This document shows, piece by piece, positions 5,900 to 13,437 of a DNA stretch of 64,000 nt (the first letter of the stretch is position 1; every line of letters begins with the position of its first letter). The position numbers and the translations under genes are program-made. A model generated the notes under the pieces. That model did no database searches, was not told the origin of the DNA, and saw nothing but the letters and a program-made list of their open reading frames with translations. Origin of the DNA: Candidatus Latescibacterota bacterium (GTDB lineage Bacteria > JAAXHH01); assembly GCA_022822725.1 (NCBI GenBank), contig JAJEAN010000007.1, positions 2,305,045 through 2,369,044 of the forward strand. The letters run 5' to 3'.

Positions 5900-5933
5900 G
5901 GGTCGGGCAAGGCGGCGCCGGCCCATCCGACCC
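5900..5933. terminator. Weak hairpin between convergent genes
   Basis: GGGTCGG at 5900-5906 can pair with CCGACCC at 5927-5933, and GATGGG just before can alternatively pair with CCCATC. The element lies in the 54 bp gap between the convergent Lgt-like gene and the pentaheme cytochrome gene and touches the latter's stop codon. There is no T tract, so it would not be a canonical intrinsic terminator. A role as a transcription or mRNA 3' barrier is only a suggestion. Confidence 0.25.
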
Positions 5934-7669
5934 TACGGCAAGTCCAGCCGGCTGACGGCCTCGGCGAGCGGGACCGCCGAGGTCGCGGCGTTTTCGTTGT
6001 AGTAGGAGACGAAGCGCTTCGTCTCGTGGGCATCGTAGGGGGCGAGGTTCTGTGCCCACCGGAAGCCGATGGTCTGGAACATCAGCCGCGCCCGGACGTC
6101 GACGTGCCGCACGCCGGCCGGGACCTCGACCCGGTACCGGATCCTGTCGCTTCCGGCCTGGAAGTCCGCGTCCTCCCGCGCTTTTCCGTGCACCATGATG
6201 TCGTCGTCGGCGGTCACCTTGTCGAATCCCTCAGGTAGCACGCGGTTGTCCTTGGCGTAGGTGACGGCCGTCAGCAGGCCCGTGGTGACCCTTCCCGATC
6301 CGTCCGCAATTATCGGTTCATAGATCTGTACCTGGCCTGGATCTTCGATCACATCGTAATGCGGCTCATAGCGGGACCCGTCCGCGTCGTTGTCGTTGCC
6401 CTCGATGCTTCCATCGGGGCGCATGGCGCCGGATTCGTACAGCAGGTCGCCGGCGCCGTCGTATACCGCAAGGTGGATCCAGGCCCTTCGCGACGGGTAG
6501 GCCGTCGGCAGCTTGTGGCCCGCCAGGTTCGTCACCTCGATATCGATCGTGACATGGTCCCCATCGCGGGACACGGCCAGCACCTCCATCCGGGCGGTGG
6601 CGGTCTCCAGGTTCTCCCGGGTCGCTTCGGCAGCGCGCTGCAGATCACTCGACGGCGCGGTCACGAGCAGTTCATCGCGATACTTGTCCAGCAGACGCAG
6701 CATGAACTCGTTGCCGCCAAGGAACACATGCTGCGAGACCTGCTCCCGGTAATCCCCAAGCACCGAGGAGATGGGGGCCGATGAGATTTCCGGCATATGG
6801 CATGACTGGCAGCTTTCCGACTCGGCGAAGGCGCTGTGCCTCCACTCGAGGTAGGGCGTCTGTTCCGGAAAGCGGGCCACTTCCCGTCCCTCGGCGTCCA
6901 GGCTCGTCGTGAACAGGGTGTGGCACGTGGCGCAGAGCTCGGACTGCTGGACATGTACGGAACTGTCGGGGAGGAAGCCCGTGGCCGACTGCATGACCCG
7001 GGTCAATCCGTCGTCCACCTCGAATGGTCCGAATATCTGCGGATCGACGCCGGCTTCCGTCCGAATCAGGAAGTTGCCGTCGAAGCTCGATTCCTCGCCG
7101 AAATTATCGGGCCGTATCTGGTGGCAGGTCGTGCAGGACACCCCGTCCATGGCGAGCAGCGCACTTTCCTCGCCCCGCCGGGCGGCTTCGAGATGCGCGA
7201 ACACCTCGCCGAGTCCACCGTTCTCCCGCGCCACCACTCGCGCCATGGGCATATGGCAGGTCGAACAGGTGTCCTCGATCTCCGCCCGCGCGCCGGGATG
7301 GTCGGTGATCTCCCGCCGCACGGCTGCCTGCCAGTAGGGGTCGCGTGCGGAATGCGCCATCATGGATCCCCGCCAGACATGGCCGATGGAGACGTTCTGC
7401 CCGTCCGCGTCGACGATATTGCTGTGGCAGGCGATGCATTGGTCCGAAGTGGCGAAAGTGCTGTGGTCCACCGATTGCGCGTCAACGGTTGCGCACGCCA
7501 TCCCGAAGAAGGCCAGCCCGACGAAGGCCAGCCCGACGAAAGCCGGCCAGGTGAAGGCAATCCAGGCACACGCCTGCCTGGCGATACCGAGCCGCGCCCG
7601 CGTGCTGCACGTCCACAGCCGCATCCACAACCTGCCTGCGTAGCTACCAGCCATCGCGGAAGCCTCCAT
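5933..7669 (-). CDS. Pentaheme c-type cytochrome, exported
   Basis: The 578-residue protein carries five CxxCH heme-binding motifs: CIACH, CSTCH, CTTCH, CATCH and CQSCH, all in the N-terminal 300 residues. The C-terminal half has no heme motif and looks like a beta-rich domain. The N-terminus has a long hydrophobic stretch ending near ATVDAQS that fits a Sec signal peptide; it contains a tandem AFVGL repeat. Multiheme cytochromes of this layout carry electrons in the periplasm or at the outer surface. Its start overlaps the end of the upstream cytochrome-barrel gene by 26 bp, so the two form an operon and probably work together. The Met at residue 6 is an alternative start. Confidence 0.85.
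   Translation of the reverse strand: MEASAMAGSYAGRLWMRLWTCSTRARLGIARQACAWIAFTWPAFVGLAFVGLAFFGMACATVDAQSVDHSTFATSDQCIACHSNIVDADGQNVSIGHVWRGSMMAHSARDPYWQAAVRREITDHPGARAEIEDTCSTCHMPMARVVARENGGLGEVFAHLEAARRGEESALLAMDGVSCTTCHQIRPDNFGEESSFDGNFLIRTEAGVDPQIFGPFEVDDGLTRVMQSATGFLPDSSVHVQQSELCATCHTLFTTSLDAEGREVARFPEQTPYLEWRHSAFAESESCQSCHMPEISSAPISSVLGDYREQVSQHVFLGGNEFMLRLLDKYRDELLVTAPSSDLQRAAEATRENLETATARMEVLAVSRDGDHVTIDIEVTNLAGHKLPTAYPSRRAWIHLAVYDGAGDLLYESGAMRPDGSIEGNDNDADGSRYEPHYDVIEDPGQVQIYEPIIADGSGRVTTGLLTAVTYAKDNRVLPEGFDKVTADDDIMVHGKAREDADFQAGSDRIRYRVEVPAGVRHVDVRARLMFQTIGFRWAQNLAPYDAHETKRFVSYYNENAATSAVPLAEAVSRLDLP
7496..7555. repeat. 15-bp tandem repeat inside a signal-peptide coding region
   Basis: Two perfect copies of a 15-bp unit (7511-7525 and 7526-7540, GGCCAGCCCGACGAA) are flanked by decayed copies at 7496-7510 and 7541-7555. 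The repeat is in frame on the minus strand and lengthens the hydrophobic core of the pentaheme cytochrome signal peptide by AFVGL units. Confidence 0.85.
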
Positions 7670-8780
7670 CGAACCAGTCCCAGAGCAGGTACATGACGAT
7701 CTGGAACTTGCGGCCCTGCCTGTTGGTGGCGGGCACCCGAACGCCCACGTTGAGCAGGATGTGCTGGCGCGTATTCAGCGCGACCTGCATCTGAGGTACC
7801 AGGTCGAGCGAGACGTCGGCCCCGGAAACCGATTCGCGGGACGCAAGCAACTCGACCATGGGACTCCAGGCCCGGCCGAACTCGCCTTCCGAGAAGGTCC
7901 TGCCGAGTACGAGCCGAACGGCCGCTTCGTCCTCCGCGTCACCGCTGACGGCGATCTCGCCCAGCATCTGGGCCTGTAAATAAGCATCGCCGGGCAGTAG
8001 CTGAACAAAGGCCGCGTATGGCTCCAGTTTCGTCGAGCCCGATCCGAAACCGTCTTCCTCCCTGCCGGTGGGCAGGATAACCTCGCCGCCGATGCTGAAG
8101 GCATTCCCGCGCTCCAGGTTGTGGTAAAGCGCGTACTTGTAGCCAAGTGACAGGTCCTCGAATCCCAGTTTCGCACCGTCGTCCCGTGGGGACTCGCGTC
8201 TGCCTAAGGGGACCTTCACTTCGATCATGCCCCGGGGGCCGAACCGTTTTTCGTACACCGGCTCCAGAATCAAAGCTTTGCTGTCGTCCGTGTCCAACCT
8301 CACGTTGAATACGGTCTCGTCCTCGGGGAACGCCTTCTCGGTAAACAGGGGCTTGGGCACGTTGAATTCGCCGCGGGGCCAGTTGTCGTTCGTGCAGAAA
8401 GTGCGGACGTGCCCGAGGATGGCGTAGATCTCTTCGTCCGTCAGGGCATCCCCGAAGGCAGGCATCATGCGGTCGAAGGCCCGCACAGGCCCGCCTTCAT
8501 GGATCACGGCGTGCCAGTCCGGGTCGGGTTCACGGGAGGCGAATTCGCAATCCGTAAAGTCCGGCAGCTCCAGGGCAAAGCCGCGTTCTTCGAGCGGCCG
8601 TCCCCTTCCATCCGATCCATGACAGGCCGCGCAGGCCTGTTCATAGAGCTTGGCCCCGTCTATGGGTCTGGAACCGTCAAAGGGTCTGGAACCGTCGACC
8701 TGGTCGGCGGAGGCGATTCCCGTCAGGAACAGTCCTGAAAGACAGAGTAGTGCTGCGATACACTTGTAATGTATTTGCAT
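7644..8780 (-). CDS. Cytochrome c fused to a barrel-like C-terminal domain
   Basis: The 378-residue protein begins with a clear Sec signal peptide ending near TGIASA, followed by a duplicated DGSRPF/DGSRPI segment. A class I cytochrome c domain comes next, with CAACH and a later MMPAFGDAL that can supply the axial Met. From about residue 150 to the end there is no heme motif. The sequence is made of alternating beta-strand-like segments such as GMIEVKVPLG, LSLGYKYALYH, FSIGGEVILPTG and LNVGVRVPA, which resemble an outer-membrane beta-barrel or porin-like domain. A plausible reading is an outer-membrane protein with an electron-carrying domain, acting with the pentaheme cytochrome that overlaps its 3' end. 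The barrel call is by strand pattern only; a soluble beta-sandwich is the alternative. Confidence 0.75.
   Translation of the reverse strand: MQIHYKCIAALLCLSGLFLTGIASADQVDGSRPFDGSRPIDGAKLYEQACAACHGSDGRGRPLEERGFALELPDFTDCEFASREPDPDWHAVIHEGGPVRAFDRMMPAFGDALTDEEIYAILGHVRTFCTNDNWPRGEFNVPKPLFTEKAFPEDETVFNVRLDTDDSKALILEPVYEKRFGPRGMIEVKVPLGRRESPRDDGAKLGFEDLSLGYKYALYHNLERGNAFSIGGEVILPTGREEDGFGSGSTKLEPYAAFVQLLPGDAYLQAQMLGEIAVSGDAEDEAAVRLVLGRTFSEGEFGRAWSPMVELLASRESVSGADVSLDLVPQMQVALNTRQHILLNVGVRVPATNRQGRKFQIVMYLLWDWFDGGFRDGW
8661..8696. repeat. 18-bp tandem duplication after a signal peptide
   Basis: Two copies of an 18-bp unit (8661-8678 and 8679-8696) sharing GGGTCTGGAACCGTC lie just after the signal-peptide region of the cytochrome-barrel gene. 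They encode the two DGSRP hexapeptides in frame. Confidence 0.85.
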
Positions 8781-8934: not shown

Positions 8935-9384
8935 TCAGGCCACCCGCTCGATCCGGACGCGTTTGACCCCTTCACGCCGTATGCGGTAGCACACCTCGAA
9001 GAATCCGGTCGTATCGCCGATCATCCGAGCGAAGAGGTTCACAGCGACGGGGCCGTCCGGCATGTTGGGCCGCCCGTCCCTGCCGTAGAACCAGCAAAGC
9101 TCGGTGATCCCGTCCAGCCACCCGTGCATGAGACCGGGCTCCAGGCGGTAATAGCAGATATCTCCAGGGAGCGTGCGGCTGGTCAGGTTCTCGGGCAGGG
9201 TGACGATATCCTCGGACAGGAAGTAGGCAATCTCGCTGCCCGAGTACACGGCGTGGATGCCCTCTTCCTCGAGAGGCAGCGCATCCCAGACGGTCTGGCA
9301 GGTTTTCGGGGCCTCGTCTTCGAGCAACTCGGCATCGACCGAAACGCCTTCGTCGATGAAGGTCAAACGGATTGTTCGAGGCAT
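8935..9384 (-). CDS. DUF3830 family protein (cyclophilin-like fold)
   Basis: The 149-residue protein reads like the DUF3830 family, with an early LLEDEAPKTCQTVWDALPL segment followed by HAVYSGSEIAYF. DUF3830 proteins have a cyclophilin-like beta-barrel fold; no enzymatic activity is established for them. No signal peptide or membrane segment is seen. It lies between two outer-membrane protein genes and the cytochrome pair on the same strand, with 52 bp to the upstream barrel gene. The ATG at 9384 has only a weak ribosome-binding sequence. Confidence 0.65.
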   Translation of the reverse strand: MPRTIRLTFIDEGVSVDAELLEDEAPKTCQTVWDALPLEEEGIHAVYSGSEIAYFLSEDIVTLPENLTSRTLPGDICYYRLEPGLMHGWLDGITELCWFYGRDGRPNMPDGPVAVNLFARMIGDTTGFFEVCYRIRREGVKRVRIERVA

Positions 9385-9436: not shown

Positions 9437-10246
9437 CTACAACTTCATGAACACACCAATGTCCCAGGCCGGGGCGTCCAGCAGGTTGCGCGCGCCCGAG
9501 TACTTCGTCACACCCGCGGTGATCCCCGCACTGGTCGTAATGTAGAAATTGATTTCGGGACCGAAGGACACGTACTGCTGGTCGTTCACGGTCCATTCAT
9601 CTCCCGTTCCGAGGGCTTTCACTCCGCGAACCCACGCGGATACCCCGATGCGATCGTCCATCATGAAACCCGCTTCCAGCGCGTACCTCAACTCGTCGGA
9701 AAAATCGCTTTCCCGGTTGTTGTAGCCGATTTCGGCTTTAAGGTAACCCGGTGTCGGCCAGAGGGAATGGCCGACCTGTAGCGAGAACAACTGGTTGAAT
9801 TCACCATCGCCGGTGAACAGGCCGACTTCCTGTCCGGAAAAGGAATCTCCCAGCGGCAGTCCGGCCATGACCTGGAGACTTACGACCGTGGGCCTGTTGG
9901 TGAGCAGCCCGATCCTGGCCCCGAGCTCCCAGTCCCCGGTACCCGTCTTGGCATCGGACCCGGGCCTGTCTTCGCTTATGCGCTGGTAGAAGGGTATGTA
10001 GCCTACTAGCGTCAACCGATCCACAAGGCCGAATTCGCCATACAGGCTGGTCGTATATCGGCTCTGGGCTGTTATGGTCTCCTTCTTGCCGGATGGCTTG
10101 AAGTACGTGTCGCTCCGGATGATTTGCTCGTTCAGCTTGAAGTAGCCCTTGCCCTGGGGTTGGGTCCATCCTCCGGCGTAGGCCGTTCCGGGGGTTTGAA
10201 GGAGAAACCCGGCAAGCAAGGCACTGGCCAAGATGAATCTGGACAT
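9437..10246 (-). CDS. Predicted outer-membrane beta-barrel protein, paralogue A
   Basis: The 269-residue product starts with a signal peptide ending near TPGTAYA and then GGWTQPQGKGYFKLNE. The rest is a series of alternating strand-like segments (for example TTSLYGEFGLVDRLTLVGYIP) typical of small outer-membrane barrels of the transporter/porin type. The last residue is preceded by VFMKL, consistent with a hydrophobic final strand. I chose the ATG at 10246 because AAAAGGGG lies eight bases before it; a GTG three codons earlier is also in frame. The gene downstream of paralogue B on the same strand is separated by about 40 bp, so the pair is a tandem duplication in one operon. Confidence 0.7.
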   Translation of the reverse strand: MSRFILASALLAGFLLQTPGTAYAGGWTQPQGKGYFKLNEQIIRSDTYFKPSGKKETITAQSRYTTSLYGEFGLVDRLTLVGYIPFYQRISEDRPGSDAKTGTGDWELGARIGLLTNRPTVVSLQVMAGLPLGDSFSGQEVGLFTGDGEFNQLFSLQVGHSLWPTPGYLKAEIGYNNRESDFSDELRYALEAGFMMDDRIGVSAWVRGVKALGTGDEWTVNDQQYVSFGPEINFYITTSAGITAGVTKYSGARNLLDAPAWDIGVFMKL

Positions 10247-10286
10247 GTTACACACCCCTTTTAGGATGCCTAACAGCAGAATCAGT

Positions 10287-11111
10287 CTACAGCTTCAGAA
10301 ACACCCCGAATTCCCAGGTAGGCGCGTCCAGCATGTTACGGGCCCTGGTGAACTGCGTCATACTGGCGGTTACTCCCGCGTTGGGCGTAACGTAGAAATC
10401 GACCTGGGGCCCATAGGACAGGTACTCGATATCGTTGCGTCCGTGAAACTCGTCATCCGCGCGGTCGAGAGCCTGTACGCCGCGGAGGCTTAATGCGATG
10501 CCGACGCGTTCGGCGATCGTGTATCCGGCCTGCATGCTGTACCGCAGTTCGTCGGCGTAGTTATCGGCGGGTACGTCACTGCTCTTGCGATTGTTGTATC
10601 CAATCTCACCTTTCAAGTAAGCGGGAACTGGGTAAAGCGAGTGCCCCACCTGGAGGGAGAAATGCTGGTTGAACTCGCCGTCTCCGGTCCAGAGGACGAT
10701 ATCTCCCCCCGAATCTCCCAGCGGCAAACCGGCCAGGGCTTGTAGGCTGACCACCGTCGGTCCGCCCGTCAGAATACCGATCCGGATGCCTACATCCCAA
10801 TCGCCTATGCCTGAAGTTGAATCTAACCCCTCGGCATCAATGCTGTAACTCGTATAAAATGGCATGTAGCCCACCAGCGTCACCCGGTCGATCAAGCCGA
10901 ATTCACCATAAAGACTCGTCGTATTGCCGCTGACTTTCGGAATCTCGGTTTTGACTCCGGACGAATGGTTCAGTGATTCGGCACGTACGATCTGCTGGCT
11001 GAGTTTGAAGTATCCCTTTCCCTTCGGCTGGGTCCACCCACCCGCGTGGGCAAAGGTTGAATAGCAAATCAATACGGCCGTCATCACTGTGGCTGATATG
11101 AACCTGTTCAC
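10287..11111 (-). CDS. Predicted outer-membrane beta-barrel protein, paralogue B
   Basis: This 274-residue protein matches paralogue A along its whole length: GGWTQPKGKGYFKLSQQIVR after the signal peptide, TTSLYGEFGLIDRVTLVGY, then LQALAGLPLGDSG and a final FGVFLKL. It uses a GTG start at 11111 preceded by AAAGGAG at seven bases, a strong ribosome-binding site. The upstream Big2 lipoprotein gene ends only 19 bp away. Function is unknown; the pair may form pores or partner the large lipoprotein. Confidence 0.7.
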   Translation of the reverse strand: MNRFISATVMTAVLICYSTFAHAGGWTQPKGKGYFKLSQQIVRAESLNHSSGVKTEIPKVSGNTTSLYGEFGLIDRVTLVGYMPFYTSYSIDAEGLDSTSGIGDWDVGIRIGILTGGPTVVSLQALAGLPLGDSGGDIVLWTGDGEFNQHFSLQVGHSLYPVPAYLKGEIGYNNRKSSDVPADNYADELRYSMQAGYTIAERVGIALSLRGVQALDRADDEFHGRNDIEYLSYGPQVDFYVTPNAGVTASMTQFTRARNMLDAPTWEFGVFLKL

Positions 11112-11130: not shown

Positions 11131-13314
11131 TCAGTTGCTCAGTGATCCGCTACCAAGCTTCATGTTCACTAATGCGCAATGAAGAATGACATGATTATAG
11201 GAGGCGATACTCTCGCCGGCTCTGGGCGTAAAGGTTGTTGAGAAACTTCTATCACCCGTAACATCTCCAAAACTCCTGGCACCATCTGGTTCTGGTCCTC
11301 TTTGCCAGCTAATCGACGAACTGGTGTAGAGAAACAAAATCGCACGAACCCCGCCTCCAGTGTTCATGCCGGTTATGGTCAGTTTGAGTTGCCCGCCAGT
11401 TACTTCTTCGAACGTTACGGACCCAGCGGTGTTCGGATAGTTGCTCGTACCCGAAATCGTTGCAGTTCGACTCCTCAGCATAGGCGGAGGCGGCGGCGGT
11501 GGCTCTGTCACCGTCAGCGACGCCGTGCCGGGTACACCGTCCACGGTTGCCCTGATCGTCGCAGAGCCGGCGTTAACACCGGTAGCGGTCGTCGCCGTCC
11601 CGGACGACGGGCTTACCGTCGCGACGGAGGTGTTGCTACTCGTCCATGTGAAGGTCTTACCCGAAATTGCCGTACCGTCCGACTCTCGCGCGGTGGCTGT
11701 GAATCGCTGCGTTTCACCTTCCTCGATCGACGGCGAAGATGGACTCACCGTCACGGTTGCCACCACGGGATCGGGTGGAGGCGGTGGTGGGGGTGGAGGT
11801 GGAGGCGGTGGAGGTGGAGGTGGAGGTGGTGGCTCGGGCTCGGTCACTGTCAACCTCGCAGTACCGGATATACCGTCAACCGTTGCTGTTATGGTCGTGG
11901 ATCCCGCACCCTCGGCAGTAGCGAGCCCCATTGCGTCTATGGTTGCTACGGTTGAACTGGCTGTTTCCCAGCTAAAGGTCTTGCCTGTGATCTCCATGTT
12001 ATCCGAGTCATAGGCTGTCGCTGTGAATTGCTTGGTCTCACCTTCTTCGATCGACGCCATCATCGGTTCCACGGTTACCCGATCTACAACCGGTGCGGGC
12101 TCGGTAACCGTGACCGTCACCGGATCGGAAGTGGTTTCTTCTGTCATGGCGGTAATATCTGCCATGCCTGCGCCAACCGCGGTAACCAGCCCGGTTGAAT
12201 CAACGGTCGCCACCTCGCTGTCGTCGCTCGACCAGGCAAAGGCCACACCACCCACCATGGTCCCGTCTGAAGTCAGGGCGACGGCCATGAGTTGGTGCGT
12301 TTCGCCTGACTCGAGCGTCACCGGCATGGCGTCCACGATCTCGACGCTGGCGACTTCCGGCGTCATTTCCTCAACGGTGACCGTCGCGGGCATACTCGTC
12401 ACATCATTCCCCGTGGCCGTGATCATCGCCGTACCGGCAGCGACTGCCGTTACTAGCCCGGTTTCATCCACCGTGGCGACTTCCGTATCATCGCTCATCC
12501 AGGCGAAAACCACGTCATCAACCATCATGCCGTCGGCAGTCGTGGCGACTGCCGTGAACTGGAACATGCCTCCAACCATGATCATCATGGAAGCCGGACT
12601 CACCGTCACCGTTGATACCACCGGCTCAGGCGGTGGGGGTTCACTCACATTGATCGTTACGGGCGAACTCGTTACGCTGCCCGACGCGGCGCGGATCATC
12701 GCCGTGCCTGCACCGACGGCCGTGGCAACACCGGCGGAAGTAATGGTCACCACGCTGGTGTCGCTGCTCGCCCATGAAATACTGACGTCATCGCGGACAG
12801 TGCCTCCCGCGGTACGGGCCATCGCCGAGAAGGTCACCATTTCCCCTACCATGATATCCTGTGCCGCGGATGGAGAGACCGTGACACTGGCCACCGGCGC
12901 CACGGTGACCGTGATTGTCGCCGGCTGGCTCAATATGCCGTTTCCAGTAGCCCTGATGGTCGCCGTGCCTGCGCTAACCGCCGTAGCCACGCCGCTGGCA
13001 TTTATCGTTGCGACGCCCGTATTGCTGCTGGCCCAGGTAAAATTCACACCGCTTATCACGGAGCCGTCGGAAGCCTTGGCAGTCGCGACAAATCTTTGCG
13101 TTTTACCCACCTCCAGAGAAACCGTAGCCGGACTGACCTCGATTTGAGAGACCGTCGGCGCTGGAGGCGGGGCCGGAGGTGGTGTGGGCGGTGGTGAGGG
13201 TGTTGGTGAGGGCGGACTGGTCGGTGAGGAGTCGCCGCCACCACAACCTGCGGCCAGAAAAAAGCCCGCAAAAAACAGCATGGCAATACACGTTGTGATC
13301 ATTCTGTGTGACAT
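11131..13314 (-). CDS. Big2 (Ig-like) repeat lipoprotein with possible DM13 C-terminal domain
   Basis: From the ATG at 13314 the protein has 727 residues. GGGAGG lies a few bases before this ATG, which decides against the in-frame start 39 codons upstream. A lipoprotein signal (LFFAGFFLAAGCGGG) is followed by a Pro/Ser-rich tether. Six bacterial Ig-like group 2 repeats follow, each about 85-90 residues with a VTVSP start, a FTWASSNTxVATI-type core and a SGTATIxAT-type end. A long polyproline linker stands between repeats 5 and 6. The last 110 residues (SGTSNYPNTAGSVTFEEV through YNHVILHCALVNMKLGSG) resemble the DM13 domain, whose conserved Cys lies in a VVIWC-type segment. Cell-surface adhesion or matrix binding is likely. 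Confidence 0.8.
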   Translation of the reverse strand: MSHRMITTCIAMLFFAGFFLAAGCGGGDSSPTSPPSPTPSPPPTPPPAPPPAPTVSQIEVSPATVSLEVGKTQRFVATAKASDGSVISGVNFTWASSNTGVATINASGVATAVSAGTATIRATGNGILSQPATITVTVAPVASVTVSPSAAQDIMVGEMVTFSAMARTAGGTVRDDVSISWASSDTSVVTITSAGVATAVGAGTAMIRAASGSVTSSPVTINVSEPPPPEPVVSTVTVSPASMMIMVGGMFQFTAVATTADGMMVDDVVFAWMSDDTEVATVDETGLVTAVAAGTAMITATGNDVTSMPATVTVEEMTPEVASVEIVDAMPVTLESGETHQLMAVALTSDGTMVGGVAFAWSSDDSEVATVDSTGLVTAVGAGMADITAMTEETTSDPVTVTVTEPAPVVDRVTVEPMMASIEEGETKQFTATAYDSDNMEITGKTFSWETASSTVATIDAMGLATAEGAGSTTITATVDGISGTARLTVTEPEPPPPPPPPPPPPPPPPPPPPDPVVATVTVSPSSPSIEEGETQRFTATARESDGTAISGKTFTWTSSNTSVATVSPSSGTATTATGVNAGSATIRATVDGVPGTASLTVTEPPPPPPPMLRSRTATISGTSNYPNTAGSVTFEEVTGGQLKLTITGMNTGGGVRAILFLYTSSSISWQRGPEPDGARSFGDVTGDRSFSTTFTPRAGESIASYNHVILHCALVNMKLGSGSLSN
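11773..11834. repeat. GGT/GGA simple repeat encoding polyproline
   Basis: A run of GGT, GGA and GGC triplets on the plus strand is read on the minus strand as CCx codons and gives the polyproline linker before the sixth Ig-like repeat of the lipoprotein. It is a probable slippage site. Confidence 0.9.
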
Positions 13315-13437
13315 ACGACCTCCCGCCATGGCTAAGGTTTCAAAACGACGCTCTTGTCGTCGCATCCCAAGCCAACTCGCATATTCTCTGGTACGTGAGT
13401 CTACTTTTGTGTTGTTCTGGCAACGATGCACGGGGAC

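Follow-up and report, generated by a model that had tools for sequence, protein, structure and literature searches.

Fusions of a cytochrome c to an outer-membrane porin are already described in Cyc2 (PMC8406198) and Cyc572 (PMC10654088), so that the built-in heme domain, proposed as a new design in a preliminary description of the present locus, is not in itself one. Cyc2, of Acidithiobacillus and Mariprofundus, joins a signal peptide, an N-terminal monoheme cytochrome c domain and a C-terminal outer-membrane barrel in one polypeptide, as the protein reported here is predicted to do. Its motifs are AXPXFAR[Q/K][T/Y] before CXXCH and PXL after it, and passage of Fe2+ through its barrel has been proposed (PMC8406198). 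In the solved COG4313 channel, the segment ahead of strand 1 fills a lumen that would otherwise be ∼10–12 Å wide (PMC4493636). ExtKL, Gsu2801 and cable-bacteria proteins form one pentaheme cytochrome family with a possible catalytic five-coordinate heme, and a relation between c552 and the archaeal nanowire protein AvECN has been proposed (as cited in PMC11976967).

We describe a locus from a Candidatus Latescibacterota bacterium, within a window of 64,000 nucleotides (the whole stretch of DNA analysed), that encodes a predicted cytochrome c-barrel fusion and an exported pentaheme cytochrome. It points to a pair of genes whose products together move electrons at the outer membrane.

The fusion gene and its predicted barrel

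The fusion gene and its parts, in window coordinates, are as follows:

7644-8780 (-), cytochrome c-barrel fusion gene, 378 aa in a single unbroken frame (open reading frame, Pfam, AlphaFold2, >140 homologues)
8706-8780 (-), putative signal peptide, ∼residues 1-25 (GIASA/DQ), read from the sequence and not from a predictor: hydrophobic N-terminus and AxA-type site, kept throughout the alignment
8400-8660 (-), monoheme cytochrome c domain, ∼residues 41-127 (Pfam, PDB profile matches, model helices)
8619-8633 (-), heme c attachment motif CAACH, residues 50-54; C, C and H kept in 142/142 homologues
8463-8465 (-), predicted axial Met106, in MMPAFG (residues 105-110); Met-Pro kept in 142/142
8319-8399 (-), conserved linker, residues 128-154 (FTEKAFPEDE), a likely barrel plug or gate
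7647-8318 (-), predicted 12-stranded outer-membrane beta-barrel with C-terminal WDWFDGGFxDGW tail, residues 155-378 (AlphaFold2, Foldseek, PF13557)

The cytochrome domain matches Pfam families Cytochrome_CBB3 (PF13442, E 3.9e-10) and Cytochrom_C (PF00034, E 6.7e-7), and a profile search of the PDB matches it to cbb3 CcoP and c6-type cytochromes. Invariance counts refer to the 142 sequences, out of 144 non-redundant homologues, that span the heme and Met sites. Since the domain order (cytochrome, then barrel) is repeated in all 144 and both CxxCH and Met-Pro are invariant in the 142, the fusion is neither chance nor an assembly artefact. A second Cys pair, C78 and C129 (window protein numbering), occurs as both or neither in all 141 fusions compared, the pattern expected of a disulphide.

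The AlphaFold2 model of the fusion, built from 47 homologues (mean pLDDT 84.5, pTM 0.77), has a helical cytochrome domain followed by strands over residues 155-367, where DSSP gives 14 segments, or 12 strands after merging two interrupted ones. The best PDB matches of the barrel in Foldseek are 12-stranded outer-membrane channels (FapF, 5o68, E 2.7e-6); the COG4313 channel 4rl8 matches more weakly (E 1.2e-3, probability 1.00). The outer-membrane channel family Phenol_MetA_deg (PF13557) is found on residues 198-296 (E 3.6e-6; 27.7 bits against a gathering threshold of 22) and is matched at E <= 0.001 by 30 of the 47 homologues. The C-terminal W is present in 122 of 144 homologue frames. The preliminary description had set a soluble beta-sandwich against the barrel; the C-terminal part is instead modelled with 12 strands, and an outer-membrane barrel is predicted. 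Its proposal of a monoheme cytochrome c domain (CAACH plus MMPAFG) joined to a barrel-like domain stands, with the frame, Pfam, AlphaFold2 and the homologues in agreement.

Within the linker, TEKAFPEDE is nearly invariant and ranks among the best-kept stretches of the fusion alignment. By analogy with the lumen-occluding N-terminus of the COG4313 channel, which has the matching position in its chain, the linker likely plugs or gates the barrel lumen.

If the one heme sits where the barrel opens to the periplasm, about a membrane thickness would separate it from the cell surface, more than electrons ordinarily tunnel. That cytochrome and barrel are fused in one protein would suit a true trans-outer-membrane conduit, with the heme domain in or at the barrel linking the periplasm to an extracellular pentaheme protein or acceptor. 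We consider such a conduit improbable, because the ∼10–12 Å lumen of a 12-strand barrel (PMC4493636) is too small for a cytochrome c domain and because MtrA is enclosed by 26 strands (PMC8406198). The electron conduit across the outer membrane put forward in the preliminary description is accordingly weak: the lumen is narrow and the single heme, if periplasmic, would be too far from the surface. With the heme expected beyond tunnelling range and the barrel too narrow for the domain, a periplasmic relay is favoured over a trans-membrane wire.

The pentaheme cytochrome

The second gene follows the fusion gene on the same strand:

5933-7669 (-), exported pentaheme cytochrome c gene, 578 aa, shortened to 573 aa if translation begins at MAGS (7654, the likely start)
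7424-7438 (-), heme motif 1, CIACH, residues 78-82, invariant in 109/109
7253-7267 (-), heme motif 2, CSTCH, residues 135-139, invariant in 109/109
7121-7135 (-), heme motif 3, CTTCH, residues 179-183, invariant in 109/109
6920-6934 (-), heme motif 4, CATCH, residues 246-250, invariant in 108/108
6797-6811 (-), heme motif 5, CQSCH, residues 287-291, invariant in 108/108
7644-7654 (-), overlap of fusion end and pentaheme start, 11 nt (ATGGCTGGTAG)

CxxCH occurs exactly five times in the encoded protein, which begins with a hydrophobic signal. All five motifs are present in 105 of 106 full-length homologues, and the ten heme Cys and five heme His are invariant in an alignment of 110 sequences. 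Outside the motifs only H239, H314, H385 and H437 are near-invariant His in this alignment, so bis-His ligation is possible for at most four hemes; the fifth would be open or Met-ligated.

The structural model (pLDDT 85.0) matches Thermochromatium tepidum c552 (5ze8) in Foldseek with E 3.5e-16, probability 1.00 and TM 0.69 on target length, and apart from 5ze8 there is no match with E < 0.001. A profile search matches 5ze8 and the multiheme selenoprotein MccSep; the NCBIfam ExtKL model matches weakly. On its five CxxCH motifs and its modelled c552 fold, we place the protein in the c552/ExtKL/PHC family. The near-invariant Y391 lies at the position of the MccSep selenocysteine in the profile alignment, near the common ligand H385. 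Assignment to the MtrC/MtrF type was considered and rejected, the Pfam label being held weak and Foldseek putting c552 far above OmcA/MtrC.

Several of these properties would fit a reading in which the barrel is a mere membrane anchor and the module reduces or oxidises a substrate in the periplasm. Catalysis would then lie with the pentaheme protein, which would use an open heme on a soluble oxyanion or a comparable compound, and the tethered cytochrome would supply or drain electrons near the outer membrane. The four invariant distal His for five hemes suit this, as does the alignment at H385 with MccSep, a selenoprotein of the same fold; ExtKL/sPHC of the PHC family are classed as potentially catalytic owing to a pentacoordinate heme (PMC11976967), and selenite and tellurite reduction is linked to ExtKL and the porin ExtI (PMC5877670). 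Such an anchor would, however, need neither the strongly conserved barrel residues nor the nearly invariant linker, and the replacement of the pentaheme gene by a cupredoxin-like gene at some loci (below) argues that the module can at times do without a pentaheme enzyme. We judge this reading possible, if rather doubtful.

The pentaheme protein also bears on the conduit considered above: the MtrC/MtrF domain II/IV profile matches weakly in all 39 homologues aligned, which would favour the conduit, but the pentaheme alignment contains no conserved lipobox. It could further be supposed that the protein polymerises into an extracellular cytochrome filament akin to archaeal ECN nanowires, with the fusion barrel as its dock or its secretion channel, given the proposed kinship of the c552 fold with AvECN (PMC11976967) and a closest barrel match, FapF, that is an amyloid secretion channel. 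The likeness is at fold level only, ECN structures are absent among the best 50 Foldseek matches of the pentaheme model, and the FapF likeness reflects the common 12-strand barrel class, with no sign of secretion; we regard a filament as very improbable.

Operon linkage, distribution and exchange of the partner

In gatggctggtag, 11 nt are common to the end of the fusion (DGW-stop) and the beginning of the MAGS... frame at its ATG, a figure that rises to 26 nt with the upstream ATG as start. The pentaheme start codon thus lies inside the last fusion codons (gATGGCTGGTAG), the arrangement expected of translationally coupled genes. Among 109 pentaheme-linked loci, the start overlaps the fusion stop in 55 and falls within 30 nt past it in 51. 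An overlapping gene for an exported five-heme cytochrome, as first noted from this window, is therefore confirmed by the five CxxCH motifs, the N-terminal signal, the overlap and a conserved partner.

The two-gene cassette proposed in the preliminary description proved widespread when sought in other genomes: the pentaheme gene is directly downstream of the fusion in 107 of 117 close homologues, a cupredoxin-like gene in 7 and neither in 3, counts that are not population frequencies since the set was partly chosen by similarity to the window protein. Among 27 divergent or partial fusions the neighbour is a pentaheme gene in 2, a cupredoxin-like gene in 5 and neither in 19, one lying at a contig end. 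The ∼19 divergent fusions lacking a redox neighbour show that some fusion genes have no partner gene next to them, which counts against a relay of the two proteins, as do the pentaheme relatives found without a fusion in six sampled Acidobacteriota. No redox gene adjoins the fusion in one divergent clade from Gemmatimonadota (L166-L178, L192, L193). Whole-genome searches of 23 genomes found the pentaheme gene in 21; the other two carry a fusion and no pentaheme gene, the fusion adjoining a cupredoxin-like gene in one and a GMC oxidoreductase gene in the other.

The fusion is spread over at least seven phyla (Latescibacterota, Gemmatimonadota, Acidobacteriota/Aminicenantes, Gammaproteobacteria, Deltaproteobacteria, Rhodothermota and Planctomycetota), the relatives fetched coming from metagenome-assembled genomes (MAGs) and a single isolate, Rhodohalobacter sulfatireducens. 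In evenly drawn samples, full-length or nearly full-length fusions number ∼38 for 347 Acidobacteriota genomes and ∼61 for 346 Gemmatimonadota genomes, counted from the matches listed and leaving out cytochrome-only and short ones. Ten other species of the genus represented in the window have the fusion gene, with the pentaheme gene adjacent in the loci fetched. Searches with the fusion gave no match in plasmids and no relative in viral contigs.

Fusions from Gammaproteobacteria, Gemmatimonadota and Acidobacteriota MAGs (L009-L017) are 57-83% identical to Latescibacterota ones and cluster with them, a grouping that suggests transfer of the fusion between phyla. Several of these genomes have record names that hint at sponges as the source.

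A conserved third operon gene was sought and none was found outside the genus. The nearest genes in the window are:

8935-9384 (-), DUF3830/cyclophilin-like protein, upstream of the fusion, a position conserved in this genus alone
9437-10255 and 10287-11111 (-), a tandem pair of exported proteins that resemble each other (272 and 274 aa), without a Pfam match and not conserved beyond the genus
11131-13431 (-), protein of 766 aa, built of Ig-like (BIG2-type) repeats together with a segment rich in proline, differing in length among species of the genus

The 272/274-aa pair are probably paralogous small outer-membrane proteins; one has a weak NCBIfam match to an outer-membrane transporter family. 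Being genus-specific, the DUF3830 gene and the two barrel-like neighbours are not counted as parts of the module.

The cupredoxin-like neighbours carry motifs in the order LH(N/T)...C(D/N)xHxW(M/T). Their H, C and H are present in 12/12 and M in 11/12, the ligand set of a type-1 copper site, and from these motifs the partner would be expected to bind copper. In those scanned, a CarboxypepD_reg domain follows the copper-site-like motifs. Mapped on a tree of 105 fusions, the cupredoxin label must change four times, and well-supported branches force three or more of these changes, so this association was gained or lost more than once. Two genomes (G124 and G031) hold both pentaheme-linked and cupredoxin-linked versions. 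At one locus (L105, genome G081) same-strand cupredoxin-like genes lie on either side of the fusion. The swapped partner is unlike the pentaheme protein in fold and alike in redox character, which is the best evidence that the fusion does electron transfer with an exported protein.

A proposed redox relay and its relation to known systems

Our preferred reading, held tentatively with a probability of roughly 0.45, is that fusion and pentaheme protein form an outer-membrane-docked redox relay. Its computed basis is the domain make-up, barrel prediction, ligand conservation, operon linkage and partner swap; localisation, complex formation, electron direction and substrate we infer. The small COG4313/FapF-like barrel would hold a Met/His monoheme cytochrome c at the outer membrane, on the side of the periplasm, and its lumen would probably be gated by the conserved linker. 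The exported pentaheme cytochrome would trade electrons with the tethered cytochrome, and where it is replaced the type-1-copper-like cupredoxin would take over this role. A small soluble substrate might pass in or out through the barrel, as has been suggested of Fe2+ in Cyc2, or be handled at a heme left open in the pentaheme protein. The tethered cytochrome would pass electrons on to periplasmic carriers and, in this host, to cytochrome c oxidase.

In the host genome, genes for the alternative complex III subunit ActD and an NrfD-like protein adjoin those of cytochrome c oxidase subunits 1-3 (COX1-3). No MtrB/PioB barrel (PF11854) was found there, which also counts against the trans-membrane conduit. 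Together these features describe a bacterium that respires oxygen and lacks a classical conduit barrel. A broader proposal, that this is a third, independently built cytochrome-barrel fusion family serving as an all-purpose redox port of the outer membrane, at which one exported partner (pentaheme or blue-copper-like) can stand in for the other and aerobes without Mtr/Pio exchange electrons with outside substrates, seems unlikely to us as yet.

In openly accessible literature, beyond which lie most subscription journals, no description of the module was found; papers on fusions concern Cyc2/Cyc572 or are unrelated. Cyc2 was ruled out as the family of the fusion by its published motifs and description: AXPXFAR[Q/K][T/Y] upstream of CXXCH, the shorter PxFAR, and PXL ∼4 residues past CXXCH each occur in 0/142 homologues. 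No OprO/OprP structure is among the best 50 Foldseek matches of the fusion.

If the relay is real, fused cytochrome-barrels reach beyond the Cyc2/Cyc572 iron oxidases, and another barrel family has acquired a heme domain and reached seven phyla or more, many of which are not known to transfer electrons outside the cell, with probable sponge symbionts among the carriers. The pair would also be an annotation marker for a redox module now divided among 'c-type cytochrome' and 'phenol degradation' labels, and the partner swap is a testable handle on the interaction partner of the fusion heme domain.

The pentaheme protein resembles T. tepidum c552 (5ZE8), ExtKL, Gsu2801 and MccSep in its five hemes and in a predicted fold common over most of its length, and by profile alignment has the GH-x-x-P region at H385 in common with MccSep. 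It differs from them in its ∼15% identity, its larger size and a partner gene that is a cytochrome-barrel fusion. As in MtrCAB, PioAB and Geobacter PCC, one operon holds a barrel gene and a multiheme gene; in Mtr/Pio a separate 26-strand barrel surrounds a decaheme wire, whereas the barrel predicted here has 12 strands and carries one heme in the same polypeptide. The COG4313/Phenol_MetA_deg channels (Pput2725, SphA, TcpY) and FapF have a similar barrel fold, length and N-terminal segment ahead of strand 1 but lack a heme domain, FapF having a coiled coil instead. Cyc572 of Leptospirillum is likewise a cytochrome-porin fusion, set apart here by description only as longer (residues >550 are cited, PMC10654088). 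Cyc2, for which a periplasmic heme is proposed as it is here, has 16 predicted strands, is OprO/OprP-like and mostly at least 400 aa long (PMC8406198), whereas the window fusion has 12 predicted strands of COG4313-like type, a cbb3/c6-like cytochrome domain and a conserved pentaheme or cupredoxin partner gene. We therefore rate the cytochrome-barrel fusion as a kind already known, and as new the different barrel family, the absence of Cyc2 motifs and the operon partner.
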